Assembly: GCA_022457155.1 (NCBI GenBank)
Contig: JAJGOT010000001.1
Location: 2,255,001-2,319,000 of the forward strand
DNA: 64,000 bases
DNA from: Cladopsammia gracilis
Lineage: Eukaryota > Cnidaria > Anthozoa > Scleractinia > Dendrophylliidae
Reading direction: 5' to 3'
Shown: in pieces, positions 5,280 through 58,129 of the stretch
Layout: each line of letters begins with the position of its first letter
How positions within the stretch are numbered: position 1 is the stretch's first letter
Made by a program: the position numbers and the translations under genes
Notes under the pieces: generated by a model
What the model was told of the DNA's origin: nothing
The model's input: the letters and a program-made list of their open reading frames with translations, nothing else
Databases searched by the model: none

Positions 5280-5306
5280 ATGGGCAACCTTCTTCTGCGT
5301 TTAGTT
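5280..5306 (+). CDS. Secreted-protein gene 1, exon 1 (start of signal peptide)
   Basis: ATG followed by eight codons, reading MGNLLLRLV, then a strong donor GTAAGT. It ends in phase 0, matching the acceptor of exon 2 at 19385. The split product starts with a charged, then strongly hydrophobic run typical of a signal peptide. The same ATG, codon count and donor recur at 40984-41010 (MDSPLLRLV) in the second copy. Pairing with exon 2 is inferred from phase, signal-peptide completion and identical order in both copies. A transcript would prove it. Confidence 0.6.
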
Positions 5307-5735
5307 GTAAGTACAAAACATTATTGCTTCAAAAGGTTAAAAGTTCTCTTTTTTGGGGGTGACGAAATGAAACAATTTGGAGGATTTGTTTGAAAAAGTG
5401 TTATAAAGACAAAAAAGGAATTTTCTTAACTGGTCGTCATATCACTCTTTACTGTATTATTGAGTTGTACGATTTCTGTGCCATAAATGGCATCAAGACA
5501 ATTTCTGTCAATGCATTTTGTCGTAATTGTGATATGGTCTAGATGTTAGCAGGCAGGTTATAATTTTAAGAAAAACGACAAAACGTTTTAGTTTGAAAAA
5601 CATGTTTCGACAGCAACTTCTGTCATCTTCAGTTAATTAGTAGTGTACAAAGCGTTGACAGTGAATATATAAGTGGGAACAAATGTTAATTATGCTAGTA
5701 ACAACAATGTAAATAAAAGCGTGACAATGTGAGAA

Positions 5736-6065
5736 TTATAAGGATAGTTTCAAATTTACATGATGTAATTGTTGATTCAAAGACGGTTTTTCTCTATGAA
5801 TATGAAAAGCCTCTTTTATCTTAAGTTGGAAACTCGTAGAAGCGTGATCTAAAATATGAAAGCAATCTTGTGAACACAAGGTACGGCAATGTTCAGAATT
5901 CAGTAGATGTTTGAAAATGTGCGAGGTCCTGTCATTGACTAAGTGCTCACGCACGCGTGTGGAAAAATGCCGGGTTGTTTCGCCGACATAACAGGCATTA
6001 CAGCCCGCACATACAAACTTATAAACCACACGCGAACGAAGCCCGTCAGGGACAGGGTCTTTCAC
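5736..6065 (-). pseudogene. GIY-YIG endonuclease fragment of Penelope-like element (left arm)
   Basis: Encodes about 110 C-terminal residues of a Penelope-like polyprotein. A CxxC motif (CAGCNACYVGE) runs into the GIY-YIG core, followed by TRHFSTRVREHL and a conserved basic tail ending at the element's stop codon. The family uses this nuclease for target nicking during retrotransposition. There is no reverse transcriptase and no start of its own, so the fragment cannot be autonomous. It is a mirror image of 6141-6470. Confidence 0.8.
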
Positions 6066-6470
6066 TTTATTAAGCACTATTGTAATGATTTGGATATAAA
6101 ATTAGTTTTTTCTTCCTTTAAGATAGGCAACATGTTTAGCGTGAAAGACCCTGTCCCTGACGGGCTTCGTTCGCGTGTGGTTTATAAGTTTGTATGTGCG
6201 GGCTGTAATGCCTGTTATGTCGGCGAAACAACCCGGCATTTTTCCACACGCGTGCGTGAGCACTTAGTCAATGACAGGACCTCGCACATTTTCAAACATC
6301 TACTGAATTCTGAACATTGCCGTACCTTGTGTTCACAAGATTGCTTTCATATTTTAGATCACGCTTCTACGAGTTTCCAACTTAAGATAAAAGAGGCTTT
6401 TCATATTCATAGAGAAAAACCGTCTTTGAATCAACAATTACATCATGTAAATTTGAAACTATCCTTGTAA
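6066..6470 (+). pseudogene. GIY-YIG endonuclease fragment of Penelope-like element (right arm plus linker)
   Basis: Same C-terminal nuclease as the left arm, but with about 25 more upstream residues (reading DLDIKLVFSSFKIGNMFS) that form the usual linker between reverse transcriptase and endonuclease. The CxxC, YVGET and TRVREH motifs are intact. The reverse transcriptase is missing (5' truncation). The open frame upstream of 6066 on the plus strand is only antisense read-through of the left arm. Confidence 0.8.
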
Positions 6471-9159
6471 TTCTCACATTGTCACGCTTTTATTTACATT
6501 GTTGTTACTAGCATAATTAACATTTGTTCCCACTTATATATTCACTGTCAACGCTTTGTACACTACTAATTAACTGAAGATGACAGAAGTTGCTGTCGAA
6601 ACATGTTTTTCAAACTAAAACGTTTTGTCGTTTTTCTTAAAATTATAATTGTGATATATTTTAATGACAAAATTAGTTAAAAACTGTCTAGATTGTTTTG
6701 CATTTTGTCATTTATATACGTAAAGTGACAGTTCGATGAATTTTTAAATTTCATTTTTGTGCATTTACCTCTTTCACAATCACAATTCACGATCACAACA
6801 GCAGCGATAGCGGCACAAAACAAGAGCTTTAATGAGCGAAAACAATGCCTCTGCACGTGCGAAGCTCCGAAGAGAGGAATTTTTGAGTCTCTGACGTCAC
6901 TTTCGCTGGCTATCTTTTGGAAATTCAGAAACATGCAAATTTAATAGCGGCCATGCAAAATTCGAAAAGAAAAAAAAATCGTTTTCCCTTGATCGGATTA
7001 TAAAACCTTTTGGAAAGGTTACGAAATACATTATTTACTTTCGAAAAGTGCAAAAAGAATGAAATTTCAAAATTTGATCGAACTGGCACTAACGATAGTC
7101 TATGAATAAAATAACAAAAAGACCGAATCTAAGAAGTAACGATTAGGTTAAGTTTTGAAAAAAAGAACTTAAAACCGAAAGGGAAGGCAGTTTGGCCTTG
7201 ATCCGAATTCCTTAGGAGAACACGTGTGCGGAAAGCTAAGAGCGGAAAACACGTGTGCGGAAAGCTAAGAGCTTTTCTGTGTTGTGTATTAATTTTATTT
7301 TCTATATATATATTCCATTACACCTTCACCGCGGGGCCAAACCACCCCTCCAAGGAATCATTAAGAATGGCAAATTTTGGTTATCCAACTGGATTTTTTA
7401 AAACCATGTCGCCCTTAGTAAGCGTCTGTGAGTGTGTTTGGCCTTGGATTTTGTCTCTAAACTGCGCAATATAAAAACTAAAGACTGCTGCTAGTCTTTT
7501 TTCCTCTCGCTATCGACCCTTTTCCCTCTTCTCTCTCTTTTCTGTGATTTTCGGGCTCATCGGGGTCACAAAAACCCTTGTTTGGTCGAGCTGTAGTGAC
7601 TCAGCTATAAATGTATTGGGCATTTCGTTACCAAACTGAGAAAGCGAACGGGACAGGCACCAAATTATTTAGATATCAAAATTAACAGAAGATATAAAAA
7701 AATATGACGTCACAGTTGATGACGTCATACTATATCCTTAATTTAAAGTTTGTAATTTCCAACTTTTTTTTTAGAAAGAGGACAACAAGAGAAGTTAAAA
7801 ACTGAAAACCATTTGTCGATGTCACAAATATTAGATATGATATCACAATTATTTCATGGCTTAAATTAAAGTTTTCGAGGTGAAAATCAAAAATATAAAA
7901 CCATACGATTTTTTTTTTCAACACTAAGTACTTTACTTTATCAAATTCTCAGCTTTACTTAAAAGAAAATTGAAAAAAAAATTATCATAGGAGTTTATTT
8001 TATTGGAAATTTATGGTTCCGGGGAAAAACTGAAATTTCTTCAAATTGTTATAACTCAAGAAATATTTGTCAAAGCGAGTTATGGTTTTCTGTATATTAG
8101 TCCCCTAGTCAAGCTCTTTCAAATGACGTATTTGGCGATACAAAACTAAAAAAACTCTGTACCACGTGTTTTTGTGACGTCATAATTATGACGTCAGATT
8201 TTGACATTTTGAGATATTTTTACCAATGAAATGTTTTGGACAACAATCCAAGTGAATGTACGAAGTTTGTTGATGAAATGTGCAAAAGAAGCAAACTTAG
8301 CCTAGATGATCATTTTTAGTGTCGTTTGGCCCCGCCGTGTTATTCAACCAAACTAACAAAAACTGTGACTAAACTAACTGTGATCAGTGGACAATTAAAA
8401 CCAGTAATTGTCAGTATTGAGAGGGATCTGGAGCTGATTACCCGATGCCTTCCTCTCCGGTATATCCTCGAGTCAACCCTTTGCCGTATCAGTATGACTT
8501 ATGCACGTAATCGGAAAAAGAAAATGGCGGCCAAAGGCGCAAACCTAGTCTCGATTTAATTGGCTCCTGCCCGTGTTCATCGTCTGTTTTCCTCGAACAT
8601 TCCTCCTTTTCTGATTACAAAAACACGCAGTTGAGGTTCTCGGTTAGTTTATAACCTAACATTTAATATATAACTCGCCTGAAGTTCTGAAATAACGTGA
8701 GTGTTTGTCTGTCTTTTGAGGTTTGAGTTCGTTTCTACTGAACACGTGTAGAAAATTGAACATTAATTGTGAAGTCTTCGTAAGATCACCGCCTTTCTGT
8801 GGATTACAGGGCAAAACTTCAGCTGCGCTAACGATCCAAGGCGAATGAGTATTTCTATTCAGTGTCGAGATGACGATGTTGATCCTTCGCCTTGGCTGGC
8901 TTTAGTTTCGTGTGTTTCTGCGATGGATACTTCGATCATTTACTGGAGCTCACAATTCAATTCACAATTCACTATGCTAGCGAGGTCAACAGTAATTTAA
9001 AAGATTATACTGCACAAACGGCTTAAACTGCTTTGCGTGGCCATTAGAAGAAAGAGCACATCGACACCGGTAAACTGGCACTGAACTAGCACCATATAAA
9101 TATAAATTCCAACATCACTGAACAAGGTACTAATATGCACACGATCAGGAAGCCTATAG

Positions 9160-9259
9160 TGCATAAGCCCCCGGCTTCTATATAGGCTTCCTTGTCACTA
9201 CTACATTAAACATTTTGTAGTCTATCGTCTTTTAAGTTATTATAAATTTCTAGTGTATT

Positions 9260-9322
<63 letters not shown>

Positions 9323-9330
9323 CATATATA
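9160..9330 (+). mobile_element. Retroposon 3' end with (ATT)n tail
   Basis: A unique stretch ending in TTTTAAGTTATTATAAATTTC is followed by about 18 ATT repeats (roughly 9262-9317), the pattern of a LINE or SINE 3' tail. No reverse transcriptase remains. Confidence 0.35.
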
Positions 9331-10048
9331 TTTTTTTAATGTGGTTCAGTGGCAAAATAAATAAAATGAAATGAAAAATGAAATGAAAGGCTCTGAGGAT
9401 ATACCGACATTCTACCTGGGAATAAGTCACAGTGCTGTGCCAGATTATCAAGCTCCAAGGTCTTTGAGCTCACTGAAATCCAAAACTGACTGGGCATTTT
9501 ACGGTGCTGTTTCATTTTAGGTTGCATTCACTCAGTGATGCTGCGAGAGATTTTCGCTGTCTCAATTCGCTGTCAACTCCTTAAAAAAAAACCTGCGTTT
9601 CCTTTCTTTATGTAAACTAATATGTCAGAAAGAAACATCACAGTTTTCGTTTGAAGAAACTGGCGAGAATCGGAACTTTCTTTCGATGAATCAGTGATAA
9701 CTCTTTCCGAGCACAATTTCCGTGTATATGTAGCTGTCGGCTTGACATCAAATTACCAGCTTGTGACGTAAAACAATAACTCTGTTCTGATTGGGCATTT
9801 TAAAGAATGCGCGGGAATCTGAGAGCCCTGTGGAGTTCTAAAAAACGATACGGAAATTAAAACTGACGAATTTATAAGGGGGAGGAAGGCTCCAGGTAGC
9901 CGGCTGCTGGAGAGATATACATTTAAAGGGGGACTGACCCGGCTGATATATCGCCGTTTCATGATTATGGCCAGGAGCTTGCTTTCATGACTTATTATCT
10001 TGAAATAGGAACCGGCGGGACAGTGTCCTTTCAAACGTGTCCCTTTAA

Positions 10049-10428
10049 AGGGGAAGTATCACGGGGATTTGGTGTCATTTCAAAAAGCTAAAAATGTTAT
10101 TGTATATGATCAGAGCAGAAACCGAAAAATAGAACTCCAATGGCGGTGTGATAAATTATCACAAAATATATCAACACTGTCGATAAATGTCTCTCGACAT
10201 TGACGGAGTGGGTTTGAATGAATTACAACTTTAAAAAAGTTAGCCTAATTTTTTCAAGTTTCCACATTTTCGTCTCCCAATGGGCTAGAACAGATCATTA
10301 TCTGTCTCTCTTTCAAAAATTGGTTTATTCCACTGTCTTGGTGTTTTTGTATTATTTTGTAAATAAGTACAAGGTATTGTAAAATGGCTTTGACCAAAAA
10401 ACATCAAAATTCCCGTGATACTTTCCCT
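10049..10428. mobile_element. 380-bp TTAA-flanked TIR element
   Basis: Ends AGGGGAAGTATCACGGG and CCCGTGATACTTTCCCT are terminal inverted repeats, flanked by TTAA (10045-10048, 10429-10432). The matching local repeat units at about 12095 and 14985 have uninterrupted TTTAA sites in the same context (CGGCATTTAATCATTACACA-like flank), giving two empty sites. TTAA duplication suggests mobilisation by a piggyBac-type transposase. It has no coding capacity. Confidence 0.8.
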
Positions 10429-10432
10429 TTAA

Positions 10433-10933
10433 ACGGCATATACTCATCACACGACAATTTGAATGATGCGGCTCATCCATAAAGAATTACAAGTGACATA
10501 AGTTTCAATCGAAGTTTTACCTTGTTGTATAAACTTTAACAGCGACAGCACTTCCATCCTTATTATCTGTAATCCTACACTTAATCTCCAAACTATTTTT
10601 GTTCAATTAAGTTGTATATTTGGTGGCATCTGATGATATGACATGAAAATAAGGTAAGGGAAATTTTGCATGTCGGCGGGACACTGTCCATTTAAACTGC
10701 ATGTAATCATTACACAAAAATTTGAATGCCTTTCGTGACGACGCTCAACAACTGAAAAGTCCATGAAGTATTGAACGTGACATAACTGGCGGAATTATTA
10801 GGGAAGTTATATTCGTTAGATGCACAGTATTGAACAGCAAATAATATGGTAGACCAGTAATTGCCAACGGCAGATTACAATCTATTCTCGCTTCCGATTT
10901 CCCACACGTTCCAGCTATTAACGAGAAATTTAA
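10433..10933. repeat. Local dispersed repeat, unit a
   Basis: Contains AATCGAAGTTTTACCTTGTT ... CACTTCCATCC ... CACTTAATCTCCAAAC, then CAGTATTGAACAG and CACACGTTCCAGCT. The same order recurs at 11938-12390 and 14770-15330, with a fragment at 12718-12785. It continues after the insertion at 10934. Identity unknown; it behaves as an old local duplication or element family. Confidence 0.55.
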
Positions 10934-11334
10934 GGCCCCGTCCACACGTATACGTTTACGTTCGTAAACGCATATTTTTTAATCTAAAACGCTCCCGTCC
11001 ACACGAAGCCAGCCATCGTTTACGATTCGTTTTCACCTGTCCACACGTAAACGCTAAAACGATACGTAAACGCTAAAAATCTGCATTGAGCATGCGCTAG
11101 ATAACTTGAGCATGTGCCATAAACAGCTGTGACATCAGCGTTTACGAAAATATCCGTTTACGCTGTCCACACGTAAACGGGTAAACGGCGTTTTCGAAAA
11201 TATCCACTTTGGAGAGCGTTTTCTAAAATATCAGTTTAGGGTGACCGTTTTCATCGTTTACGTGTGGACGGAAGGCCTAAACGCATTAAAAAATATGCGT
11301 TTACGAACGTAAACGTATACGTGTGGACGGGGCC
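10934..11334. mobile_element. 401-bp TIR element (GGCCCCGTCCACACG), TAA target duplication
   Basis: Long near-perfect terminal inverted repeats (GGCCCCGTCCACACGTATAC at both ends) continue through subterminal CGTTTACG repeats. It is flanked by TAA (10931-10933, 11335-11337). The empty site is visible in unit b at about 12345 (GAGAAATTGAAAAAAATGTG). Three-base TAA/TTA targets fit PIF/Harbinger-type MITEs. Non-coding. Confidence 0.8.
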
Positions 11335-11337
11335 TAA

Positions 11338-11937
11338 GAATGTGGCACCTGATTGAAAGTCATTCTATATACAGCTGAATTTTTGAAAACGTGGTCAATG
11401 AAAATTACAGCAATTTCACTACAACTAGCTCAAACAAGGGTTTTTATGATCCCGATCAGCCAGAAAATCACCGAGAAGAGAGAAAAGAGGGAAAGGGAGC
11501 GAGAGCGAGAAAAAAAAAAAGACTAGCAACAGTCTTTAGTTTTTATATTGTGGGGTTACTTAGGACGACATGGTTTTCAAAAAATCCAGCTAGATATCTC
11601 GATAAAATGGCGACTATGATCAGGAAAAGTGCCAAAAAGCCATTACCGGCCAACGTCCCGCTTTCTGGAACACTCCACAGGCTGAGCGTTTCCTTGAAAT
11701 AATTATCTCGATAGAATGGCTACAATGATCGGGAAAAGTGCCAAAAAGCCATTTCCGGCAAACGTCAGCGCTTTCTGGAACACTCCACAGCGTTTCCTTG
11801 AAATATGTAGCTGAATCATAGTTGATAGAACAATGGTTGAATTTTTGTAAACGTGGTCAACGAAAATTACAGCAATTTCACTACAACTAGCGCAAACAAG
11901 GGTTTTTATGACCCCGATCAGCCCGAAAATCACAACA
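11338..11937. repeat. Repeated non-coding block
   Basis: Holds two similar about 170-bp units (around 11580-11700 and 11703-11810, sharing GGGAAAAGTGCCAAAAAGCC-like sequence). Parts match 7330-7600 in inverted orientation. Open frames here on both strands (11391-11702, 11703-11975) reflect the repeat and show no domain. Confidence 0.4.
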
Positions 11938-12390
11938 CAGCACTTCCATCCTGTAATCCTGCACTTAATCTCCAAACTATTGATTGTCTTTTGTTATATG
12001 GAATCTTTTTTTTTAATTAAGTAAATGTATTTTTATTTTTAAGTTGCATTTGGTGATATGACATGAAAATCACTAAATGTAATTTTGTATGTCGGTGCCC
12101 CTTTAACGGCATTTAATCATTACACAACAATTTGAATAAGGCGGCTCAAGAAAAGGACCATGAAGAATTATTAGGGAAGTTATATTTGTTAGACGCACAG
12201 TATTGAACAGCTATATTTGAACAGAGAGCTTGATGCAAATAATATGGAGACCATGCAGTAATTGTGCCGGTAAACACACTGCCAAAGGCAGATTACAATC
12301 TATTCTCGCTTCCGATTTCCCACACGTTCGAGCTCATAAGGAGAAATTGAAAAAAATGTGGCACCTCATCGAAAGTCATTCTATATTTTC
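11938..12390. repeat. Local dispersed repeat, unit b
   Basis: Second unit of the repeat described at 10433. It lacks both MITEs present in unit a, so it preserves their target sites. Confidence 0.55.
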
Positions 12391-12603
12391 AGAAACTATA
12401 AATGACCCTAAATCCTAAGTAGCTCTAAGTAAGAATAATATTTCTGTGAACTTCACGTTTCCAAAATTAAATTTACAACCGTTTGAATTTCACGAAAATT
12501 CGAAAACATGCCAATAAACAATCATTTGCCTTTAGAAGAATGTTCGTGCGAGTTCACTTTTTTATAATCTCTTTCTTTGCTTTAAGTTGAGAGTTATAGC
12601 AGC

Positions 12604-12605
<2 letters not shown>

Positions 12606-12652
<47 letters not shown>

Positions 12653-12666
12653 GATTATTATTATTA
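12606..12666. repeat. (TTA)n microsatellite
   Basis: About 20 TTA/ATT trinucleotides with a single GATTATTA interruption. Confidence 0.9.
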
Positions 12667-13209
12667 AGTCATCCCTAAATCCTAAAAAGTATCAATGCAG
12701 TACGATTTTTATCAAGCGCTAAGTTTCAATCGAAGTTTTACCGTGTTGTATAAACTTTAACAGCGACAGCACTTCCATCCTTGTGTGGAAAGAACGAAGT
12801 CTTACGCTCGTCTGGGAGGACTGCTCAAGGCAAAGCAGAGGTCCGGAATCACTGTACATCAATATTCTCAGCTATTCTCAGCTATAGGTTTATTTCTCTT
12901 CTTAGCTTTCTTCTCAATGCTGTTTTCTCTGCTCCAACGTTCTTCTTCTTACTTCGCTTTCTTCTTACTTCTAGACCTACTCTTATTCACAATGCTCGTA
13001 TTTACTCATGCGCGTAGCGACATGAGTTATAAAATGGGCTCCGTTTTTCTTTTTTTTTTCTTTCTTTTTTTTTTGGTGTCACGATTTTTCATGCAAATTT
13101 ATGCACGCATATTTTAAATTGTATATATCCGGTTCATAGCTTTGCCCTTTACACTTCCGGTTTAGTGACTTCCGGCTACTCTCACTTCCGGCAAAACATC
13201 GTTACTTAA

Positions 13210-13535
13210 GGTGGCTCCCAACAGTTTCCAGCACTTTCCAAGACGTAGATTTTGATGGTCATTAAAACCACTCTTTATCAGTTGATGTTACAATCATGAT
13301 ATCAAACGAATGCCCGATAATTGGTGAACACGTTGTTATCATTTTTGTGACACAATATGTTACTATAGCAACAGTATAACGTGCTCAAAACACCCTTAAT
13401 TTTAGCTTTAAGTATTCATAACACAAAAATGACTCGGTGAACCCCATTTTTTTATTGTCGAAATTTGATCAGTAGGATAAGATGCAACTTTTGGCAAAGT
13501 TTAAAAAAATTCTGTAGGTGGGGTTCAGAGCTACC
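13210..13535. mobile_element. 326-bp TTAA element, GGTGGCTC family, copy 1
   Basis: TTAA then GGTGGCTCCCAAC at the left and GAGCTACC then TTAA at the right (TTAA at 13206-13209 and 13536-13539). A second copy of identical length lies at 18082-18407. Both are followed by the palindrome AAATTTTCGAAAATTT. Non-autonomous. Confidence 0.75.
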
Positions 13536-13551
13536 TTAAATTTTCGAAAAT

Positions 13552-14764
13552 TTAAGGTAGCTTAAATTGTGAAATAAAATGTTTCAAATGTCAAAAAAAA
13601 AAATCTGAAAGTTTCATTGGCATTGATTCACTGGAACGCCTTTAAATTTAAAGATGAAGACGACGTACGAACCGGCCGAAAAAAATGGCGTTACAAATTT
13701 ACTTTTTTTAGTTATTCTCAGTAATGATTTCAAATCAATGCGCACTACATTCTTCCGTGATTGAAACATTGCAATGTACGCTCGTTGATGCAAATTTCTT
13801 TGCGTCTGTTTTCTTTTGCGTTCAAAACGCCTGCTGTAAAAACGTTTTCAAAACACAAAAGAGCATTTATTGCTCAAAATAATCCTAAAAAGAGACTTAA
13901 GGGAATCTGGAAAGTAGCAAGGAGAGTAATAAAGTACAATCATGCTCGAATATTGATAATAATAAATGCACAGCAGACCACAACGAAAGTATAAATCACG
14001 GAGGAATGCAGTGCGCATTGATTTGAAATCATTATGAAGCATAACTTAAAAAGGTAAATTTGTAACGCCGTTTTTTCGGCCGGTTCGTACGTCGTCTTCA
14101 TTTTTTAATTTAAAGGCGTTCCAGTTAATCAATGTCAATGAAACTTTTTTGCACATCGGTAAGCATGCACAGTGAATGTTTTAAAAAAAATCCATCGAGC
14201 CGTTTCTCAGATTTTTGCAAAAGCCATTAAAATCGAAAATTACCTAAAAATTGCACATGAAGCGATGTTAGGAAAAAAGGTTGTTCTCAAGATCGCAAAA
14301 GAGAAAGTAAACAAAACTTTCAAAGTTTACAAACATAACATCAAGCTACGTTTTGACATTATCATTAAGTAGTTTCACAAAACCAGTGTTAATCTCTCGA
14401 TCAATTTAATACCAGTATACAAATAGAAAGGTTTGAAATGTTATTACGATTTATTTGAATTCAAACATACAGAATATTTTTATTCTTGCAAAATATATAT
14501 GCCATATACCATATTTTAAGATGCCTATGTGGGATTTTCAATGCGAAATCTTAAACGCGCTAAATTTCACTTTTACTGATTTCTAAGTTTCTTGTTTATC
14601 GTCGTCATGGTAATATCGATTTTACCAGAAAATATATCTTGCCAAACTTCAATTCAAAACCAGTTAGTGGTGAAAATTTCACGTTGATCTGACTTGGAGA
14701 AGGCCGCTTAAAAGCCGATTGAAAAATGTTGGTATGGTCTCCAGAAAACTGTATCGAACCACCT
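13552..14764. mobile_element. Foldback element with about 155-bp internal inverted arms
   Basis: Arms 13607-13762 and 13997-14148 are reverse complements (left arm contains GGAACGCCTTTAAATTTAAA and GACGACGTACGAACCGGCCG). The block ends at ACCACC-TTAA (14759-14768) and begins near TTTAAGGTAGCTT, so it may be a longer TTAA element of the GGTGGCTC type. Its outer boundaries are uncertain. Open frames inside (13761-13994, 14172-14372) have no recognised domain. Confidence 0.5.
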
Positions 14765-14769
14765 TAAAT

Positions 14770-15330
14770 CGAAGTTTTCCCTTTTGTATATAAACCTTTA
14801 ACAGCGACGGTACTTCCATCCTTATAATCTGTAATCATGCACTTAATCTCCAAAGTATTGCTTTTGTTTTGTTCTATAGAATCTTTTTTGTTTAATTAAG
14901 TTGTATATTTGGTGGCATTTGATGATATGACATGAAAATAAGGTAAAAGGAAATTTTGTATGTCGGTGGAACAGTGTCCATTTAAACTGCATGTAATCAT
15001 CACACAACACTGAATTTGAATAAGGCGGCTCAAGAAAAGGACCATGAAGAATTATTAGGGAAGTTACATTTGTTAGACGCACAGTATTGAACAGCTATAT
15101 TTGAACAGAGAGCTATGCAAATAATATAGCAAACCAGTAATTATGTAAAGACATTGCCAATGGCAGATTACAATCTATTCTCGCTTCCGATTTCCGATTT
15201 CCAACGCACAGTATTGAACAGCTATATTTGAACAGTGAGCTATGCAACTAATATGGCCGGAAACACACTGCCAACGGCAGATTGTAGTCTATTCAGTCTC
15301 GCTTCCGGTTTCCCACACGTTCGAGCTTAA
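14770..15330. repeat. Local dispersed repeat, unit d, with internal duplication
   Basis: Third full unit of the 10433 family. The piece CAGTATTGAACAGCTATATT occurs twice (about 15081 and 15211), indicating an internal tandem copy. Confidence 0.5.
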
Positions 15331-15374
15331 AACTCGGTAAAATAAGCGAAGAACTTTACTGTGTTGTGTTTTAA

Positions 15375-16361: not shown

Positions 16362-16365
16362 TTAA

Positions 16366-17990: not shown

Positions 17991-17998
17991 ACCCTTAA

Positions 17999-18077: not shown

Positions 18078-18081
18078 TTAA

Positions 18082-42567: not shown

Positions 42568-42634
42568 CTTTGTATGTGTGGAGAACAATAGAATAAAAAT
42601 GCTGAACTTCGTACAGAAGAAACATGTTTTGCGT

Positions 42635-44583: not shown

Positions 44584-44593
44584 TGTTTTGCGT

Positions 44594-45585: not shown

Positions 45586-45629
45586 TTACAATAAATAAAG
45601 CTGAGCAACCATTATATCACTGTTAGAAT

Positions 45630-47570: not shown

Positions 47571-47647
47571 TTCCCCTAAAGGCTTTCCTTAGTCCGACAC
47601 CACACCGGCAAAACCTTCCGTCACACCGATCAGAAAAAGGTTTTTAA

Positions 47648-47830
47648 AAATACTGCGGTCAGGAATCCCGCATGTTTGATTACTTTAGTACAAATTTTAT
47701 AATCTGTGTTTAACAGAGAAATTGGTTGCCAGTTTTTCAAGTCTAACTTGTCGTTCTTCTTGTAAAGCAGGCGGATAATTCCTTGACGTTGTGTGTCAGA
47801 GATTGATCCGTGTTTAAAAGAGTAATTTAG
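47648..47830 (-). pseudogene. LINE reverse transcriptase fragment (Tx1/L1 type)
   Basis: Minus strand reads SDTQRQGIIRLLYKKNDKLD then KNWQPISLLNTDYKICTKV, the conserved RT block with the NWRPISLLN motif. About 60 residues; both sides are lost. Confidence 0.7.
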
Positions 47831-47859
47831 TAAATTGTGACTTAATAGACCCTAGCCTG

Positions 47860-48060
47860 CATTATGAGCCAAGCGGGGCGAGCGAAGCATTTCGCGCGAA
47901 GCGCGACACGAGCGCGAAGCGCGAGACGAGGGGAGGAAAAAAAATAAGCGCCTGTAGACAGTCCATTGTTCTGGCTCTTCCGCCCACCAACTCCCACCAA
48001 TATTAACTGACCGCAGTGATTTGGAAATAACCAATCAAAACACGATCTATATCGCAAGTT
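47860..48060. mobile_element. Partial TAGCCTG-type GC-rich repeat
   Basis: Begins CTAGCCTGCATTATGAGCCA and carries GCGCGAAGCGCGA repeats like the other TAGCCTG elements in this window. The right terminus was not found. Confidence 0.35.
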
Positions 48061-48337
48061 ATGGAGATTTGAGAGTAGATAAGGTAATATGTGGTGTAGG
48101 AGAAGTAAATTCGGATGTGCGTAGGCTAATAAATTGATTAAAAGGTTGTTTGTGTAAAGGGTATTCGTTTATAGCGGTGTGGGAGGAAAGCGTGAAGGGT
48201 GAATTGTCTTGTGAGCGTTTAAAGAGGTTTTAAAAGACACTGACCTATTTCTATAGTAAGTGAAGGAAAAAAACGGCAAACTGATCCTTACGGCAGAAAA
48301 ACAGAAGCAGAAGCAGAAGCAAATAAAATAAAATAAA

Positions 48338-48560
48338 AGTGGAATATAATAGTGCCCAATATTTCGCTTTGCAAAACAAAGCTTCTTCAGGGGCTAGCAC
48401 TATAAATGATTACAACTGTAAAACCGTTATACAAGTGGTTTTGAAAAAACTAAAGAATAACAAAAACAATGAATGTGTGATTGGTGAAGGGTTTGACGGG
48501 TGATAAACTAAACTGACTAGTGATGAGAAAGTTAATGAAGTTCGTCGCGTCTGTTGATTC
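48338..48560 (-). mobile_element. Possible Penelope-like 3' tail
   Basis: On the plus strand CAATATTTCGCTTTGCAAAA and CTTCTTCAGGGGC resemble (reversed) the 3' UTR hairpin region of Penelope-like elements. No nuclease remains. Confidence 0.25.
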
Positions 48561-48639
48561 CACGAGAAATGCTTCACGCGCTTTTCGTAGCTGGTATTAA
48601 TAGATTAAAAAGGGTGAAACCCGTACGAAAAATTATAGA

Positions 48640-49360
48640 CTACGAGCAGTCCCTCCTTTTTCCTCAGGGATAGTAGAGCGAGCGAAATGCGAGCGCGCGT
48701 GAAAATCACCCCACGCGAGAAAGGCGAGACGCGCGGCGGAGAGAGAGAAAAAGGAGAGTCTACAGACAAAGCCCAAACTTTTGACCCTTCACGGTCGACT
48801 GATTTTGGAGTGTGAAGTTCGTATCGCCTTTCAAACGAATTACGTCATTATGACGTCACAATGACGTAATTCGTGATGAAATACGCGTCATAGTACAACA
48901 TATGCTAAGTTGAAAAAACTACAATTTCGATTTTATGCAACTTTGTCCTTTCTCCGTTGTGCCTACATTCATTGTTTTCGCGTTTAAATACCCCTAAAGT
49001 TTGACCATATATGGTCATTTGGCGGGAAATTTGAATTTCTTTAACTAGCTGTAACTTTACGTCTTTTTATCCGATTGAGATGGGGTTTTCACCAGAAATC
49101 ATAGAATTCTATACTGAAAACTAATACAACATTTTTCACACTTTTTTCCTGAATTTTAATTCTGATGCCAAATTTGGACATCATTTATGACGTCACAATA
49201 GCAGTCAAATGGGATGAAATAATCATCAATTGATAGGTAATTTATCCACCTACTTTCCTTCCAAGTTTCGTTAGATTCGATGTATTCTACTTTTGTCTAT
49301 AGCCTAAAACTCTCAGTTTCGAGAGTTGCGGGAGGAAAAGCCCTAGCAACCGACCACCGT
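48640..49360. other. Repeat-like block, no gene
   Basis: Starts GACTACGAGCAGTCCCTCC with GC-rich GCGAGCGAAATGCGAGCGCG sequence and contains several GACGTCA motifs. It looks like an element end, but boundaries are not determinable by eye. Confidence 0.3.
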
Positions 49361-49479
49361 GAAGATGGAATCTTTTGTGAATCTTTTCCCTTTATTAAAA
49401 CACTGTGGTGACAATCTAGTTAAATGCTGTTTTCTTTTTTTGATATTTTTCACCCCGAATGTTTTCCTACTAACTCGAA

Positions 49480-49592
49480 ATCCAACTCGAAGTCCAACTC
49501 GAAGTCCAACTCGAAATCCAACTCGAAGACCAACTCGAAGTCCAACTCGAAGTCCAACTCAAACTCGAACTCGAACTCGAAGTCCAACTTGA
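49480..49592. repeat. Minisatellite (TCCAACTCGAAG)n
   Basis: About nine 12-bp units with small variation. Plus-strand frames reading SNSKSNSK or RSPTRNPT repeats are translation of the array only. Confidence 0.9.
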
Positions 49593-49854
49593 GGTATCAT
49601 TACTCCCATTTTGAATGACACAGGCTGGAAAACTTCAATTTTAATTAAATGAGAAATAGAACATGATCTTCATGTCAACAATCACTTTGACCGAGGTCAT
49701 GTCAAGGATGCTTATAATTGAGATAACTTGTAATGCATTTGTTAAAGATGTTATGGCTTACATGTTATAAGCTTATTTAGTATTTTGTGAAAGAAGGGGT
49801 GCGTGACTCAGACAAAGTTTGCTGTCAGCTCAAAGGCTTTGTATGAGCGTGACC

Positions 49855-50235
49855 CGGGGGGGGGGGGGGGGGCGGGTACTCCCTTATATGACCTATACGG
49901 GGACGTGCCGCTGGACAGGGTATGGTTTTTGGCATTTTTGTCCTGAACGGGGTATATAATTTAACGCGAGTCTGTCCTAAACAGGGTATGGTTCCAGTTA
50001 ACGTAGCGCTTGTGGTGACTTCCCTTGTCGTGATTAGCATATTCATGCGAAGGTGAAGTCGTTTTCGTTTCAGATCCGTCTACTATTTTTTTAAAGCTCA
50101 GATTAATAACCACGCACGAGTCGTGTCCTAGACAGGGTCCTAAAATAGAGGGTGTTGTTCTACACAGGGTAGGTATTTTCGTTTCTTTTTTGTCCTAAAC
50201 AGGGTCAGGGTCTCAGACCCTCAGCGGCACCCCTA
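49855..50235. mobile_element. Poly-G-ended repeat, family 1
   Basis: A run of G (49857-49872), then CGGGTACTCCCTTATATGAC and repeated ACAGGGTATGG / GTCCTAAACAGGGT units, ending CAGCGGCACCCCTA. Related in style to the two blocks that follow. Confidence 0.45.
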
Positions 50236-50626
50236 TGCCCAAATATTGGTGATGATGATTTGAACGTTTTGTGCGCTTCAAATACAATAAATACAAGGCA
50301 ATGTTACATTAGGAAGTGAAAAACTGATTCAAGAAATGTAAATCTTGACTTAAAATTCAACAAATTATGTGACGAGGCTGCACGGTGAAATTCGATCATC
50401 GGACTTCCAATCTATTAGCCCTTCAGCGATAAGAAAACATTTCATGACTTGTGCCCAGAGGCAAAGAGAAAAGTTATTTTTTTTGTATCCTTCTTATATG
50501 ACTAAGATGTTTGCATCGCTAGCTTGAAAAGAGATGCGTAAATAGGTTCCAAATGATCTGTATTATCCCAAATTAACTGCCGTGTACCCAAATTTTAACT
50601 TTATACTAATTAGCAGTAGCTAAAAA

Positions 50627-51243
50627 AACCCGGGGGGGGGGGGTCTCCCATATATTAGCCTGTTTCAGGCGTTCAGATAGTTGGGAAAGCGCGAATAGTT
50701 GGGGAAGGCGCGAACAAAAGCGAGCGAAAAAATTGCGGGGAGGCTGGGGAGAGGAGGCGAAAGTTCCCTCGCCTCGCCTCCCGCAATTTTTTCGCTCGCT
50801 TTTCTTCGCGCCTTCCCCAACTATTCGCGCTTTCCCCACTATCTGAACGCCTGGAACAGGCTACCCATATATAAGCTATACGGGTATGTGCCGCTTGATG
50901 GGGTCGGGTTTTTGACCTTCTGGGTCTGAGACGGGGTCTTAGTTTTGCCCACTAAGTCTGAGATGGGGTATACTTTACCGTTCAATTTTCGAATTAAGTG
51001 TTTTGTCATTTTTTTCCGGTACATTTTTCATCTGGAACCGTGCCTGTAGAAGTCGATTCAATGAGCGTGTATGGGTTTGACGCCTAATTCTGTCAATTTG
51101 TGTAAACAAACCCCTTTTTTGTATAAAGAGCCCTTTACCAAATTTAACTGTATGGTCTGAGATGGGGTAGCAAAAATAGAAATTTTAGGTCTGAGATGGG
51201 GTAGAGGTTCTTAGGTCCCAGCGAAACACCCCCACCACCGACG
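50627..51243. mobile_element. Poly-G-ended repeat, family 2, split by a MITE
   Basis: G run, TCTCCCATATAT, then after the nested element CCCATATATAAGCTATACGG, TGTGCCGCTTGATGGGG and several GTCTGAGATGGGGT units, ending AGCGAAACACCCCC. The nested element at 50656 interrupts it. Confidence 0.55.
50656..50863. mobile_element. 208-bp TIR element, TAGCCTG type, 9-bp target duplication
   Basis: TAGCCTGTTTCAGGCGTTCA and its near complement end the element; the inverted arms of about 95 bp leave a short GC-rich loop. CCCATATAT is repeated at both sides (50647-50655 and 50864-50872). The minus and plus frames here are foldback translations. Confidence 0.85.
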
Positions 51244-51554
51244 CCCGGGGGGAGACTCCCATATGAAAGGGGCGGGGGTGCCCGTCGGAAATTTTGAATT
51301 AAACCCCTAAAGGAGACCAATCTGGGTGTGGCTCAAGCTTTTGTTGACCCCTAAAAGAGACCATTTTAAAGCACAGACAAATGTATTATATTAATGTTTC
51401 TTCGCGTGCAACCCTAAACGAGACTTTGACGGCAAAATATAATGGCGTTTTGCCCAGAACACCCTAAGCGAGACCAAAATCCGAAATTTACACCCCTAAA
51501 CGAGACGACGAGCATCCCCGCCCCTTTCATATGGGAGTCCCCCCCCCCCCCAGG
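51244..51554. mobile_element. 311-bp foldback element, family 3
   Basis: CCCGGGGGGAGACTCCCATA at the left and CATATGGGAGTCCCCCCCCC at the right form inverted ends of about 40 bp, with GACCCCTAAA / CCCTAAACGAGAC units within. Target duplication not evident. Confidence 0.6.
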
Positions 51555-53197
51555 GTTTCGACGGTGATCGGGAGACTAAAATTGATGGTTTTTGAGAACT
51601 TGTTGCTACACTGTGCTGACGATCCGCAATAACGGCGAAATACCTATCCACAGTTGCATTTAAACTTTCGGTTTGGTCTCAATCATGCCATTGTTGCGTG
51701 ACTTTTTCTACGCAGTTGTCAGCCCTTGCTTCTTATAGTACCGTCGAAAGGGCCGAGACGGCCTGAATTCGTTTCTTGCTTGTAGCAGGGCGAAAATAAA
51801 GAATTTGAAAACAAAATTGTGTATTTCAAACATGTGTACCAAAGCCTTTTGACCAGCAAAAAATAAAGGAAAACTATTTTTGGTCGCGAAATCGAGCGGA
51901 CCGCTTTTAGCGGGACTGCCACTTAACGCTAACAGACGTACCACTAATCGAAAAACGGAAAACAGAGATATTTCAGCCGATCCACATCTGAATAAATTAC
52001 AAGAAAAATATTAAACATCAAACAACATTTAACAGACCGGGCCCTATGGAATATATGAATGATCGATGTTTTAAAATATATTAAAGTGAAGTCGCTTAGC
52101 GAGTGACAACCGGACATCTCGTGCGTCTCTTGTGGTCATTTATCCGACAAGGCTGTCAAATCGGAGATAAAGCACGCGTTCTATTTTCATGTCTTTCTCG
52201 TCGCATATTTGCGTCTTGTTGTACTAGATGTGGTCAATTAGCGAGTGACAACCGGAAATTTCGTGAAGACAGACAGACAGACACCTTTATTTAAAAATAA
52301 AATTCTATGTTCTCCCAGGGTAGTCCCTTCAGAGGGTTAAAAAAAACCCCACTGCTATCAATGGGAGCCCTGGGAGAAACATAATGAAAAGAGTTGCTTT
52401 CGGCTTGATTATGCAAGAGTATGGATTTGGCTTTTGTTCTGTCGGTTTTGGAATATTGAATCATTGCCATATGAAGCACTCATCAGTCAAATATTTCAAT
52501 AGTATTGCAGGAGAAAATCCAGATGATATTAAAGTTTTGAAAATAGCTCTAACTGGGAAAGCTACTTTCCATATTAGAGGCATTACATTTTACACACGAC
52601 ATTCAAGTTTTCCAGTTTCAACCATGTTTGAATTTAGAAATAATGAGACAAAAAGATGCCAAAAAATTAGCAGAGCTACTTAATCGCATGTGAAAAACAT
52701 ACTAAACATGATATTGCCATTTTAAATCGAAGAGTTCTTAATGTAAAATCAAAAGAAAAAATTATCCTATGAATATTTCCTATTTATGTCCTACAAATGC
52801 ACCAGTAGATGATCACAACAATGCTATTTATAACATTCACTTACAACCACTCATTTCACAGTCAAAAACCGTTGATGAGCCTCCACTAGTTCTAACCACT
52901 TCTGCAGTCACCGGCAAATGAATTTTAAAGCCTTCATACCGTAGCCTTTACGTTCTTTATTTAGCAAGACTCCACTTTCTGTTCTACTGTAAAGTGAACT
53001 TCATCCCTGTTCATCCGTTGCTTCAATAACTAAATGTCTCGCGGAATAAAATGACATTATTGCCTTGTACATAAAATCTTTGTCGCGTATGTACTCTTCG
53101 GAAAGATTGAACATTCGATTTTACCCCCCCCCCCCCCCCCATCTCAAGATTCTTCTTTTTTGTTAACCTCACGTTCTAACGCATTAACGAGATGGCT
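51555..53197. other. No gene recognised
   Basis: Includes a short AAGTGAAGTC-GAGTGACAACCGG direct repeat near 52087 and 52240, and a C run at 53125-53140. The frame 52384-52683 has no domain. Confidence 0.4.
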
Positions 53198-54049
53198 TTA
53201 AGAGCCCTTTGATTGTATTTCAAAGGGACTAGTTGAAAGGCCATTGTTAAGTACATAGCTTGAAATATTGTGGTAGAACGTATGTACCCATTGTATAAAT
53301 GAAGGACCGAAGTTAAAGGCAGTAAGAGCCTGATACAGAAAATGCCTGTTAACTGAATCAAAGGCTTTCTGAAAATCAACGGTTATCATCTTGCCCTTGA
53401 GTCCGTAACGTTCCGTGTATTCAAGGATGTCGTCTATTGTCCTAATTGCATCATTGATTGTTTGTCCTTTAACATATGCGTGTTGATTGTAGTGAATTAT
53501 TTTCAGTAGCACAGTCTGTAATCTCAAGGCAATGGCTTTTGATCCGATCTTGGCATCCACATTAATCAAGGAGATCAGTCTCCAGTTCGAAATTTTGCGC
53601 TTGTCTTTATCTTTCTTTTCTAATAACGTTATAATCGCTTGTTTTTGCGAGTTGTATAATTCACCGTAATCATATGAATAATTGAGACTATCCGCAAGGA
53701 GTTCACCAAGATCTTCCCAAAAAGCAGTGTAAAACTCTACTGTTTTAAAACCGTCATTACCTGGCGATTTATTTTTCTGAAAAGACTGCAGACTTTTAAA
53801 ACATTCCGTTAGAGTTATTCTGCCTTCACACAAGAGAGTATCCTGATCGGATAATTTCGGGATCCCTTTAGACCGCAAGAACGAATTAAGGACCGTGTCC
53901 GAGGTTTTAAGCTCATCCCTCTTATAAAGGTCGGAATAGAAACTCTCTAATTCTTTCATAATCTTTTTAGGCTCGTAAGTTACAAAGCCATCTCTCGTAT
54001 ATGCCTTACGGATACAGCTCTTGGACTTTCTGTGAGTTTCAAGGTTCAA
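53198..54049 (-). pseudogene. LINE reverse transcriptase, N-terminal part
   Basis: Contains KKDKDKRKISNWRLISLINV (RT block with usual NWRPISLLN altered), then HAYVKGQTINDAIRTIDDI and the motif A region MITVDFQKAFDSVN with its catalytic aspartate. The frame ends at SPFEIQ, before the expected YxDD motif. It replicates LINE RNA by target-primed reverse transcription in intact relatives; this copy cannot. Confidence 0.8.
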
Positions 54050-54059
54050 GAAATATTTA

Positions 54060-55015
54060 TTACTCTTTTCTCCGTACTCGTACCAAGTAGTCGGAAGTAG
54101 CTCTTGAACGGATTATCGCTCCTTTCGACAGGTACTCATAACAGGAATCATACTCGTGTTTTAAAAGTTCCAGTTTTTCTATATTATCTGGTGAAGGATT
54201 TTTGCCACAGTCGACCTCACATTCTTTCAAGGAGTTTTCGATGAATCTCAACTTATCTCTTCTCGCCTTAGCTTTTTCCTTACTAAATTTTATCGTTACT
54301 TGTCTAATCCGGTATTTAATTAAATCCCAGAGCACTCTTTTATCATTGACTTCCACAAATTCCCTGCGCCACACTGGTATATTATCATTTATAAGGCTAA
54401 CATACTCGGGATCGTCTAATAAACTTGCGTTACATTTCCAATAAGATGGGCAATGCCTTTGTTCTTCAATGCTATTTAAATGAAGTACAATAGCCGAGTG
54501 GTCCGAATTAATAGAGGGGATTATGTCAACATTATTTACCTCTTCTTGGTAGGAGTCGCTTAACAACGAGTAATCTAATCTTCGTTGAATAACAGGACTT
54601 TTTTGCCTCCAGGTGAAGCGTTTGCACTGAGGATTTCTAACTCGCCAAATATCTACTAGGTCAAAATTTAAACACATCTCTTGAATGCAGTTTACAGAGT
54701 CTTTCTTTGTGGGGTTACCTCCACTGCAATCCAGGTCGGAGTTAAGACTAACACTGTAATCACCTCCTATAACAATTTTTTGCTCCGTACTTAAATGAAG
54801 ATTCTCTATTAACTCATACAAGTGTTTCAAAAATTCGCATTGTTCATGAACTTTATTCGGTGCATAAATGTTAGCTAAAAGAAAATCCGATCCCTGCACC
54901 GTGGCGTTTAGCAAAATGTAGCGACCTTCAAAGTCTATTTCGGACGATAATAGGATTTAAATCCAAATCATCTCTTACTAAGATCATCACTCCACGACTG
55001 TGATTGTTGCCACTC
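54060..55015 (-). pseudogene. LINE APE-type endonuclease
   Basis: Frame starts upstream as SRGVMILVRDDLDLNPIIV, shifts near 54950, and continues ILLNATVQGSDFLLANIYAP, KIVIGGDYS (usual GGDFN) and SDHSAIVLHL. These are the Mg-binding and catalytic segments of the exonuclease-endonuclease-phosphatase fold. At least one frameshift plus the GGDYS change mark a dead copy. Confidence 0.8.
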
Positions 55016-55019
55016 GCTC

Positions 55020-55866
55020 ATGGCCGACCCAGACCCCAAAAAGTTAACAAAGTTAACAACGAACCTTTGTTAACAACTTTTGTCCCTTTTTATACTGATA
55101 CCTATATCTCGTTTGCGCGTAGGGGCATGAACGAGATAAAAATGAACGATGAAAAACTGATAACTGTGTTCCTAATCGTTCTGCCATTACGTTCTCTTTT
55201 TCCAGATGATAGTCAACTTGAAGGGAAAATATAGTTAAATGCTGTTTTTTATATCTATTTTTCTCGAATTTATTTTTATGATTTCAAAAAGTTAATAATC
55301 AATCGATGGAATCAATTTATTAGAATTCCTCCTTTCCATGTTGAGGAAATATTTAGTTGGTTTCTCTCCTTCCTCCGTCCAGCGAACTTTTGCAGCGAAA
55401 GATTGTGCTTTCTGCCCGTTTCTCGTAACTACGTCGAAGTTCATTTTGTAAGAATTCATGTTCCTTAAGAACAGACTCTAGGTTGGTGTCATCTGTACAA
55501 GAGTTGATTTTTTTCGTCTTGGATTCCTAAGCGCTTCTCCAGGTCTTTTTCGAGTTCACGAACTTTTCGTGCCTTTTGTTCACAATACGGGATAGTAAGA
55601 CTTCTGATTTCCATTTTCACAAGCACCCATTTTAGTTTCGGATCTTCGATGTCCGAGTACCTATTGACAATACCAAAAAGGCAACATATTTATTAACGAA
55701 ATATTAACGATTGTAAAGCAAATTTCACGGATTAGAATATGTTGACAAAAAATATGAGCAGATATTACTATAAAAGTTGAGCAGATATTGTCATTAGCTA
55801 ACATATCGCTTAAAAAGACAAGTTTATGTTAAATAATCCTCATCTTTTTTTTATCCGTACATGCAG
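55020..55866 (+). other. Intron 1 (end) of secreted-protein gene 2
   Basis: Homology with copy 1 resumes at about 55672 (AAGGCAACATATTTATTAAC) and runs to the acceptor ATGCAG at 55861-55866. Before that no gene was recognised. Confidence 0.45.
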
Positions 55867-56068
55867 ACTGTTGCCGTGTTGCTCTCTGTGTTTTTGGCTG
55901 TGGAAGTGCGATCCCACAAAGTAAGGCTTTATACAGTCATGGAGGACCACACTAATTGCTCCGGGGACCGTTATATGACGATAAACACAAATAATTGCAC
56001 TCATATAGCTAACAGGTCGCAATGTGAAGCGAGATGCGATGGGTCTTCTGCATTAAGTCCCCTCACAA
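55867..56068 (+). CDS. Secreted-protein gene 2, exon 2
   Basis: 202 nt with the same acceptor, phase and donor as 19385-19586. All four cysteines and the NRS sequon are kept; changes are mostly conservative (for example HKVRLYTVMEDH against HKESLYTTMEHH). An ATG at 55861 lies inside the acceptor and, because copy 1 has TAG there, is not a credible start. Confidence 0.6.
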
Positions 56069-58001
56069 GTAAGTTGAGATTGTTATACTTCTAACCTTGT
56101 GGCAACACTAGCTTGTTGTTTATTTGTTTGACGTAGATATGAATTAATAAATGAATGAATCGGTGATATTCTAACTTTTATGACAGCTAACTAACTATTG
56201 TTGTTGGTCTTCACCAAGAGTGTAATCAGGTTTAAAAACCAAATGTATATGACACCTACTAAAAAGATTCTATGTACATGTTGCAAAACAGGTAACTGTT
56301 TTCCTTGATTTCTTAGAGTTTATAATAAACTATTTTCTTGTATAAATCTAGAAGTAATTTCTAAATTTATGCCATTCATAACAATCTAGCTATGCGGCAG
56401 TTTAGTTCTTAGTTGCAATTTCAGAGTTAGCCTTTTCAATAGAGATAGAAGCACCTAACCAGACGAAAGCAATAATGCTTTTGTCGCTGTTGTTGTTGGA
56501 TATTTGAAGAATTGAAGTAAGTAAACAAAGTACGATCGATGTGTTCATTTAGATCATCATCAGATTAACTAGCTATTGGTTGCCTTTTTCCTCAAATCCT
56601 ATAGCTACCCATGCTATAGTTAATAAAGCGCAATGGTTATGAAACCTGAGCAATGTCTTTGTTCGATGTTTTTGTTATCGTTTTTCGGCCTTGACCCTGC
56701 ACAAGACAATAGATGTTGAACTTTTGTTCGAGCAACTGACCAATAGAAATGTTGCCATTAAGTTATTCAGTCACAGCGTGTGATCGAAAAACAAAAGGTG
56801 CACGGTCAAGTACAGTTTAACATAAATTGTAGTTTCTTTGTTATCGCCATTGAAGTCTGCAAGGTTCTGTTTTAATACCATTGCTAACAATTTTAAAACA
56901 CCCAATGGAAATTCGTCTTTAAATCCCGTGGCGAACTGAAAAGAAATTTTGTATTAGTTTCTTTATAGAGAGCGTCACCTTCCCCTAGTGCTGATTTTCA
57001 TATAGTGACAAACGTTCTTATTGCTCTTTTACAATTAGTGGGATAACGCAAGCAATAGAAGACAGATAAACTCAGTATTCGCAGCCACGAGGCGACGAGC
57101 CGCGGCGATTGCAGTAATTGATTTCTTTAATTTTTTCTTTCATTTGGTCGCTACTCGTTGCAGGAACAGTTTTGTCGCTGCGACTAAATTTTTTGCCCAA
57201 AAGTTAGTAGTTCACACGAAGGCGACTGGTCGCCGCCCTGTGTACCTAACACAACTTTAAGGGGCTATATCACCATTTTTAGTTTACTTTAAGAGCCAAA
57301 TATATCTTTATATCAGTGAAAACCCAAAAATAATGATCCAGTTGTGTTTAAAATTATTGTACTAGTGCTCTAAGAGTAAAAATAAGTGTCTTGGGCTGCA
57401 GATTGCCAGGATGGAAATGGATTGCATCTTCTAATTTTTTCAAGTTTATTGCTTCTCTCTTGGAAAACTCGCTAAAACTCTGATTATGGTTTATTTTCTC
57501 TTCGAGAATTCACTTGTGGGAATGTTATCTTCCTCTAAGTGTTCTATAAGCATTTTGTGTACGACAAAGATACTGAGTTTTAATTTGGGGCAATATTGAC
57601 CCAAAAACTTTAAAATCACCATGATATCTATAGCTCTTTTAACTATACAACAGCTGGGGTATTTTACAATGTTTTTTGAAAATTCTTGGGATTCAGCAAG
57701 CGAGTTTAAATCTTGACTGTAAAATATTTCTTTTTAGTTACAAATTACATTTATTCAAATTTAAATGTTCACTTCGCCCCTAAATTATGGAATAGGCTAC
57801 TGGACTCTGTAAGATTATAAGCTACCTACAAAACATTTAGAAAAGCCTTGTACCTGCAATCTATGAAGTTATTTTAACGTTTTTTATTTTTCAGTTGAAA
57901 CTGTACTTACGGTCTCCAATTATAAATAGTACATTCCGTGTGTTTATTTGCCTATTTCTTCGTTGAACTAATTTCTGAATATTGTATTTTTACTTGACAA
58001 G
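56069..58001 (+). other. Intron 2 of gene 2, with a 1.65-kb insertion relative to gene 1
   Basis: Homologous to copy 1 until TCTTCACCA (56214) and again from TCTATGAAG (57866). The intervening about 1.65 kb is absent from copy 1, where TTCACCATCTATGAAC is continuous. No clear inverted ends, target duplication or coding sequence in the insert. Confidence 0.6.
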
Positions 58002-58129
58002 GATTTAAGCTGATTGGGCGAGGGAAGACCATGACAGGACGGAAAGTGTGCATCAAGTTCATCCAAAACAGTGGTATTCAGTATGTCCTTAAGGTCAACA
58101 GGAAGAGGCCAGTTCAACTAGTCTTTGAG
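58002..58129 (+). CDS. Secreted-protein gene 2, exon 3
   Basis: 128 nt, acceptor ACTTGACAAG, donor GTGAAT, matching 20056-20183 in length and phase, with few replacements (K to N at one site, I to V at another). Homology continues to about 58227 and then stops. The terminal exon seen in copy 1 was not found within the remaining 5.8 kb. Confidence 0.55.

Follow-up and report, generated by a model that had tools for sequence, protein, structure and literature searches.

RESULTS AND DISCUSSION

A Pair of Tandem Four-Exon Genes

The stretch analyzed here, hereafter the window, is a 64-kb piece (64,000 nucleotides, nt) of the Cladopsammia gracilis genome, C1:2255001-2319000, where C1 (contig JAJGOT010000001.1), C986, and similar labels denote contigs of the same genome. 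It carries, on the + strand, two tandem copies of a split gene for a probably secreted protein. Copy 1 starts with a 27-nt exon 1 (5280..5306), which encodes MGNLLLRLV and ends at a GTAAGT donor. After an intron 1 of 14,078 nt (5307..19384) follow exon 2 (19385..19586, 202 nt), predicted to encode the remainder of a signal peptide and the first third of the mature protein, exon 3 (20056..20183, 128 nt, start phase 1, end phase 0), and exon 4 (20979..21185, 207 nt including the stop, 68 amino acids (aa) coding). Copy 2 repeats the arrangement with exon 1 at 40984..41010 (27 nt, MDSPLLRLV, donor GTAAGT), intron 1 at 41011..55866 (14,856 nt), exon 2 at 55867..56068 (202 nt), and exon 3 at 58002..58129 (128 nt); the first part of its intron 3, which spans about 13.2 kb in all, fills 58130..64000.

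A first-pass annotation, made by reading the letters of the window, had described two direct copies of exons 1-3 with first introns of about 14 kb, and both descriptions hold. Exons 1-3 have equal lengths and AG/GT borders in the two copies, and each set gives a single open frame once joined. Self-BLAST connects the copies by five collinear homology blocks with E-values of 1e-24 to 0 (copy 1/copy 2: 5260-5404/40964-41107, 5411-5535/42089-42213, 19187-19734/55670-56216, 19734-19820/57859-57948, and 20013-20206/57959-58152). No second exon 4 lies within the 64-kb window; a genome match (C1:2326347-2326565) places it on the same contig, 7.4 kb beyond the window end, at window coordinate 71362-71565 plus stop. 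Both copies are therefore complete. The exon lengths (27/202/128/207 nt, exon 4 including the stop) are the same in both, and introns 1-3 are unlike in length and content. Identical nucleotides number 24/27 in exon 1, 188/202 in exon 2, and 120/128 in exon 3; the exon 4 proteins are 88% identical, and all four copy 2 exons are open.

Joined, the four exons of copy 1 encode 187 aa, of which about 160 residues with 8 cysteines would form the mature protein. The annotation had also proposed that a signal peptide is split between exons 1 and 2, and the two do join into one open frame with a hydrophobic stretch: the 10-residue hydropathy peak (mean 2.96) is at residue 12 in both precursors, and the putative signal peptide, with cleavage placed by eye, reads MGNLLLRLV (exon 1)-TVAVLLSVFLAVEVRS (exon 2) before HK. 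Its further description of the gene as ligand-like stands as far as a probably secreted product goes; from the sequence, a ligand is plausible and unproven. We consider it very probable that both members of the pair are complete genes of four exons, arranged in tandem and encoding a probably secreted protein of an orphan family. Assembly artefacts in which two haplotypes are joined are discussed for corals in the available part of PMC10236652, and such a false tandem pair is highly improbable here, since the longer intron stretches are only 87-93% identical, dS is about 0.12-0.13, most of introns 1 and 3 cannot be aligned, and many further copies of the family exist.

A Large Family without Pfam, NCBIfam, or PDB Relatives

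The genome (877.8 Mb, 1469 contigs, of which C1 makes up 5.06 Mb) was searched with the copy 1 protein, giving 139 matches at E 10 or better, none of them a third copy on C1. Leaving out the 13 weakest rows (E 0.25 and above), we sorted 126 of the 139 by exon type into 45 exon-2, 18 exon-3, and 63 exon-4 matches; a second family search (127 rows), inspected for additional exon 2s, does not enter the counts. The exon-4 matches lie on 13 contigs, with 20 on C1138, and a single exon, split into halves, accounts for two of the 63. An exon 4 lies within 20 kb downstream for 41/45 exon-2 matches. Fifty-three of the 63 exon-4 rows are free of stops and 10 contain one, so some of these copies are broken or misread. 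Several exon 4s in the same direction are found on each of C634, C1138, C1405, C986, C626, C1113, C1026, C399, and C1, and four first exons on C634 are spaced at steps of about 19.6 kb. Judged by sequence, the window pair is two of about 60 copies of a tandemly amplified family, and the lone large duplication of the first-pass annotation is too narrow a description of a pair that sits in a family of this size on 13 contigs.

Homology and splice rules guided the exon models built in 20 + 16 fetched stretches, and the exons of 21 members for which the three body exons were all modeled were joined. These 21 genes are a chosen set, since many loci overlap and partial models were set aside; frame and phase were required by the exon-finding script, so the openness of the models is not independent evidence, as the exon-4 stop counts are. 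QCEARCDG occurs in 21/21 spliced models, and their alignment has the further common motifs GD..M.IN...C, MCL, G.LS, and R.C.F; a 12-row subset alignment has 37 invariant columns. Counted from the exon-2 start, the members have 8 to 11 cysteines each. Exon-2 hydropathy peaks range from 2.10 to 3.03, near the exon start in 20 models and at residue 14 in L026. In the tree, the window copies pair with support 100/98, and the C986 gene L024 joins next (95/90). Exon-4 models at window 5739-6017 and 6189-6467 were false (a GIY-YIG-like frame in a palindrome), as were 93-nt exon-4 models in L010 and L030; none was used.

Sequence searches of Pfam, NCBIfam, and PDB gave no relative; the PDB matches were chance matches only, and weak Pfam matches (SAM_5, DUF2729, and three more) fell far below the cut-off and were discarded. 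In a protein database with named anthozoan proteins, 65 candidates share words with the 187-aa copy 1 product and not one of them reaches E 1, a negative limited by the word-based search. Scans of viral and prokaryote contigs likewise gave no relative. The sole database relative found is P0121, a 78-aa frame on a 518-bp ENA contig, which is 67-68% identical to copy 1 exon 4, keeps SQ/NQ at the acceptor, and is 91% identical to the C1405 member L032. The motif CEARCDG was not found in the literature searched, and no description of the family appears among the titles and abstract starts of the literature matches listed. The genes form a large, fast-changing family of probably secreted proteins with no matching family in the libraries searched.

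Two Classes of First Exon

A 311-bp query around exon 1 finds 8 further places, on C1405 (2), C634, C1138, C986 (3), and C1113. All are on family-bearing contigs, and these five contigs make up 2.8 of 878 Mb. Counting the window pair, the ATG, the 27-nt length, the frame, and the GTAAGTAC donor are kept at 9/10 sites; the tenth, at C986:587k, reads GTAGGTAC. Exon 1 as a chance frame or a dispersed repeat is rejected, because it recurs only on family contigs and is intact at 9/10 sites. At five of the ten sites, the window pair included, the next exon 2 among the 126 sorted matches is 7.5-33 kb away. On C1113, the exon-1 site is followed 2.2 kb later by an exon-2-like frame from a divergent member, whose match is among the weakest rows left out. 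The exon-1 sites L059, L063, L065, and L066 (C1405:278k; C986:587-616k) have no downstream exon 2 in the sorted matches and may belong to another gene type or be remnants.

A different exon of 24 nt, M[EDG]LK..FA followed by GTGAGT, lies 419-502 bp upstream in 8 of the 16 exon-2 models that have 795 bp or more of preceding sequence. A genome-wide search with this pattern gave 16 sites (control 0), with the next exon-2 match 358-790 bp downstream in each case. With both the 27-nt and the 24-nt exons found, first exons of at least two classes occur in the family. No 24-nt-class first exon was found for L026, L028, L029, L033, L040, or L041, the last having a possible MESKHTF, nor within 1.5 kb upstream of exon 2 in copy 1.

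Copy 1 has a TATA-like box, ATATAAAGG, at 5200..5208 (+), 72-80 nt before the ATG. At C986:594k, the same exon 1 is preceded by a similar stretch, CCCTATAAAAGGGGGATCTTCG, and TATAAAAGGGGG lies upstream, as in copy 1. Judging from a long-gap alignment (25-nt flank match, 8/500 shuffles as good), copy 2 seems to lack the TATA-bearing stretch ahead of its exon 1, a weak hint that copy 2 may be regulated differently from copy 1.

Selection and Divergence

The ratio of nonsynonymous to synonymous divergence (dN/dS) was computed by NG86, with significance from a Fisher test on the counts. This comparison of the copies, which the first-pass annotation had proposed for exons 2-3, gives ratios below 1. 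Over exons 1-4 the value is 0.47 (dS 0.123, dN 0.058; 15 synonymous, 24 nonsynonymous; p 0.030), and over exons 2-4 it is 0.41 (15 synonymous, 21 nonsynonymous; p 0.013); exons 1-3 alone give 0.53 (9 synonymous, 16 nonsynonymous; p 0.15), which is compatible with neutrality. Exon 1 itself has three nonsynonymous changes and no synonymous one. Among the 21 genes, 200/210 pairs have dS 0.1-1.2, a median dN/dS of 0.58, and all values below 1. The other 10/210 pairs, with dS < 0.1, all have dN/dS of 1.08-2.70, where the four tested give p 0.27-0.44 and the pairs are not independent.

These values bear on whether copy 2 is a pseudogene or was silenced by promoter loss. The seemingly missing TATA stretch (weakly) and an intron 3 grown to about 13 kb with transposon sequence would fit such a history, which is nonetheless doubtful given four open exons, a well conserved exon 4 protein, and a pair dN/dS below 1.

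A Possible Link to FGF

The three-exon body of the genes resembles that of FGF genes in layout. In 4/4 FGF middle exons examined in this genome, the start phase is 1 and the end phase 0, as in the window genes, and four FGF last exons start in phase 0; the likeness is one of equal position by layout, not of significant alignment, and in the other family models the phase is imposed by the script. Soon after the second intron, FGF has CIFREE or TLFRET and the window genes have FVFEER (an FxFxE motif). FGF-like exons occur on C302, C256, C680, C347, and other contigs, several being clustered on one contig. In an AlphaFold2 prediction, exon 4 alone forms four strands at a mean predicted confidence (pLDDT) of 62.

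A more far-reaching reading, with a probability of roughly 0.3, is that the family may be a cryptic, fast-evolving FGF-ligand offshoot of about 60 copies. The same body would be served by at least two dissimilar tiny first exons, one of 27 nt (MDSLRLRLV type) that lies kilobases away and has a TATA box of its own, and one of 24 nt (MELKHYFA type) at about 0.5 kb, and promoter and signal-peptide start would be exchanged as a unit between array members. In the mechanism that we propose for the window genes, a TATA promoter would drive the 27-nt first exon, which carries the ATG and the signal-peptide start, and splicing across about 14 kb would join it to exon 2. Exon 2 would supply the hydrophobic core, the cleavage site (placed by eye at VEVRS/HK), and the initial third of the mature domain, and exons 3 and 4 the rest of a strand-rich, disulfide-bonded domain released as an extracellular ligand. 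New copies may arise by unequal exchange of 20-36 kb units, with quick divergence afterward. More tentatively, an FGF gene, with its three coding exons, may be the ancestor of the three body exons.

Several results weigh against these proposals. On the FGF side, the PF00167 profile, which matches 38 FGF exons spread over 14 contigs, hits no family contig and gives no match up to E 10 (HMMER filters on) to the family members tested. Profile comparison with FGF by hhalign, from which L053 (uncertain exon 3 start) and the C290 FGF were excluded, aligns in local mode the FxFxE motif only, in the same register, at 2% probability, with 5/200 shuffles as good and a reversed control better; in global mode 3/200 shuffles are as good and the alignment is out of register. 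With a profile comparison short of significance, descent from FGF is a hypothesis that serves as a lead only. Adding its one relative to the AlphaFold2 input for exon 4 gave a poorer model (three strands, pLDDT 51.5). Tests for a threefold repeat were not significant (7, 14, and 23 of 100 shuffles as good), and single-sequence pairs gave 39, 1613, and 1885 of 2000 shuffles as good, the 39/2000 pair having been split by eye; the repeat as proof of a beta-trefoil was rejected as not significant.

Evenly balanced in our judgment is the proposal that this is an orphan cysteine-rich family, such as a venom, defense, or recognition protein, unrelated to FGF and sharing its phases by chance. It would account for the lack of Pfam, NCBIfam, and PDB matches, for the profile result just given, and for the dN/dS above 1 in the 10 closest pairs, as in arms-race families (nonsignificant in the four tested, and from nonindependent pairs). 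Against it stand the intron phases and layout in common with FGF and the resemblance of the FxFxE motif to CIFREE/TLFRET at the same place.

On the first-exon side, the 27-nt exon 14 kb upstream is supported by paralogue sequence, and its splice link to exon 2 is one that we infer. No downstream exon 2 is present among the 126 sorted matches at the other 5/10 exon-1 sites, and L056, which adjoins the C1138 exon-1 site, has its own near short first exon, MKYFA followed by GTGAGT. Exon 1 might belong to another transcript and the genes start elsewhere, copy 2 for example at the in-frame ATG at 55861, which stands directly before exon 2 (ATG CAG); the 24-nt exon about 0.5 kb upstream in other members and the exon-1 sites without an exon 2 point the same way. 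We think this unlikely, since copy 1 has a stop at the corresponding place (ATG TAG) and lacks a 24-nt-class first exon in the 1.5 kb upstream, and since frame, length, and donor of exon 1 are so widely kept on contigs that all bear the family.

Intron 1 and Neighboring Insertions

The first-pass annotation held that intron 1 was colonized independently in each copy. Each copy does carry insertions, and growth of the intron after the duplication does not stand for copy 1, where it was already long. Most of 5307-5535 and 19187-19384 in copy 1 is common to copy 2, and the C986 paralogue L024 matches copy 1 from 19078 up to exon 2 (19078-19384 in intron 1). The DNA downstream of exon 1 at C1405:278k is 69% identical to copy 1 6646-7235, right after a palindrome, so copy 1 already had a long intron 1 when the window duplication took place; an ancestral intron of only about 430 bp, the sum of the blocks common to the copies, is rejected by the same match. 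Against the C1405 query, copy 2 matches over only 25 bp (42195-42219), at the end of a block already common. Later insertions, together with losses of old intron sequence (copy 2), account for the failure of the 14-kb introns to align.

The palindrome (5558-6648, 1.1 kb, near-perfect at 96%) lies in copy 1 intron 1, and its arms hold a GIY-YIG-endonuclease-like frame, CNACYVGETTRHF. The frame has no Pfam match and is reminiscent of Penelope-like elements. The same intron contains a tRNA-Thr (GGT) at 18711-18782 (-) (Rfam 47.7 bits), either a gene or a tRNA-derived repeat. Copy 2 intron 1 has a 0.98-kb insertion (41108-42088), within which a QRICH1-like frame (41466-41885, -) scores just below the cut-off (E 1.4e-6), and an RVT_1 element at 53201-54112 (-). 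Intron 3 of copy 1 holds an insertion of about 330 bp (20207-20539), with inverted ends by eye, that is absent from copy 2. In copy 2 intron 3, two frames separated by one stop codon span 62368-63999; the second (62893-63999) is a DUF1759 (gag-like) frame, and 9 of its relatives have an organism name among the best 120 of 208 (8 anthozoan, 1 crinoid). Elsewhere in the window are a direct head-to-tail 564-bp duplication (34785-35911, 99.5% identical) and a 149-bp unit present twice (38182-38472, 100% matches, Tandem Repeats Finder).

Comparison with Known Systems

What looked like a two-copy curiosity becomes a large secreted-protein family, undescribed in the literature searched, in which first exon and promoter differ between paralogues of one array family. 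The case also illustrates that a 27-nt exon 14 kb away can gain support from paralogues alone. Tandem duplicates that keep their exon lengths while their introns diverge are called common in corals in the available part of PMC10236652 (Porites lobata, Pocillopora cf. effusa), and lineage-specific "dark" families are described likewise in that of PMC13044578. The coral tandem duplicates resemble the window genes in their tandem copies, kept exon lengths, diverged introns, and amplified families; that study (PMC10236652) treats all genes, its available part names no family like the one in the window, and the words "secreted" and "growth factor" are absent from its main text.

Small cysteine-rich proteins of corals (SCRiPs), as described in the accessible portion of PMC2652719, are likewise a taxonomically restricted secreted cysteine-rich family. 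Their mature peptide, however, has 41-48 aa and the pattern Cx6-7Cx4-6CPx3-6Cx4-6Cx5-6CCC, whereas the mature protein here has about 160 aa and CCC occurs in 0/21 models. Hydra PPODs are secreted cnidarian beta-trefoil proteins (PMC3531485, as far as its available text goes), a fold that is only a guess for the window family; by that description they have two fascin-like trefoil domains and an exposed Trp, and the window mature protein fits one domain only. The likeness to FGF (PF00167) lies in a partly strand-rich, three-exon body with intron phases 1 and 0 and an FxFxE-like motif after the second intron. The window family differs from FGF in lacking a PF00167 match, in being cysteine-rich, in its extra 24/27-nt first exon, and in a longer middle exon (110-143 nt in the models, 128 nt in the window genes, versus 104 nt in the FGF at C680). 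If the FGF link is true, a signaling ligand family would have slipped below profile recognition yet kept its intron phases.

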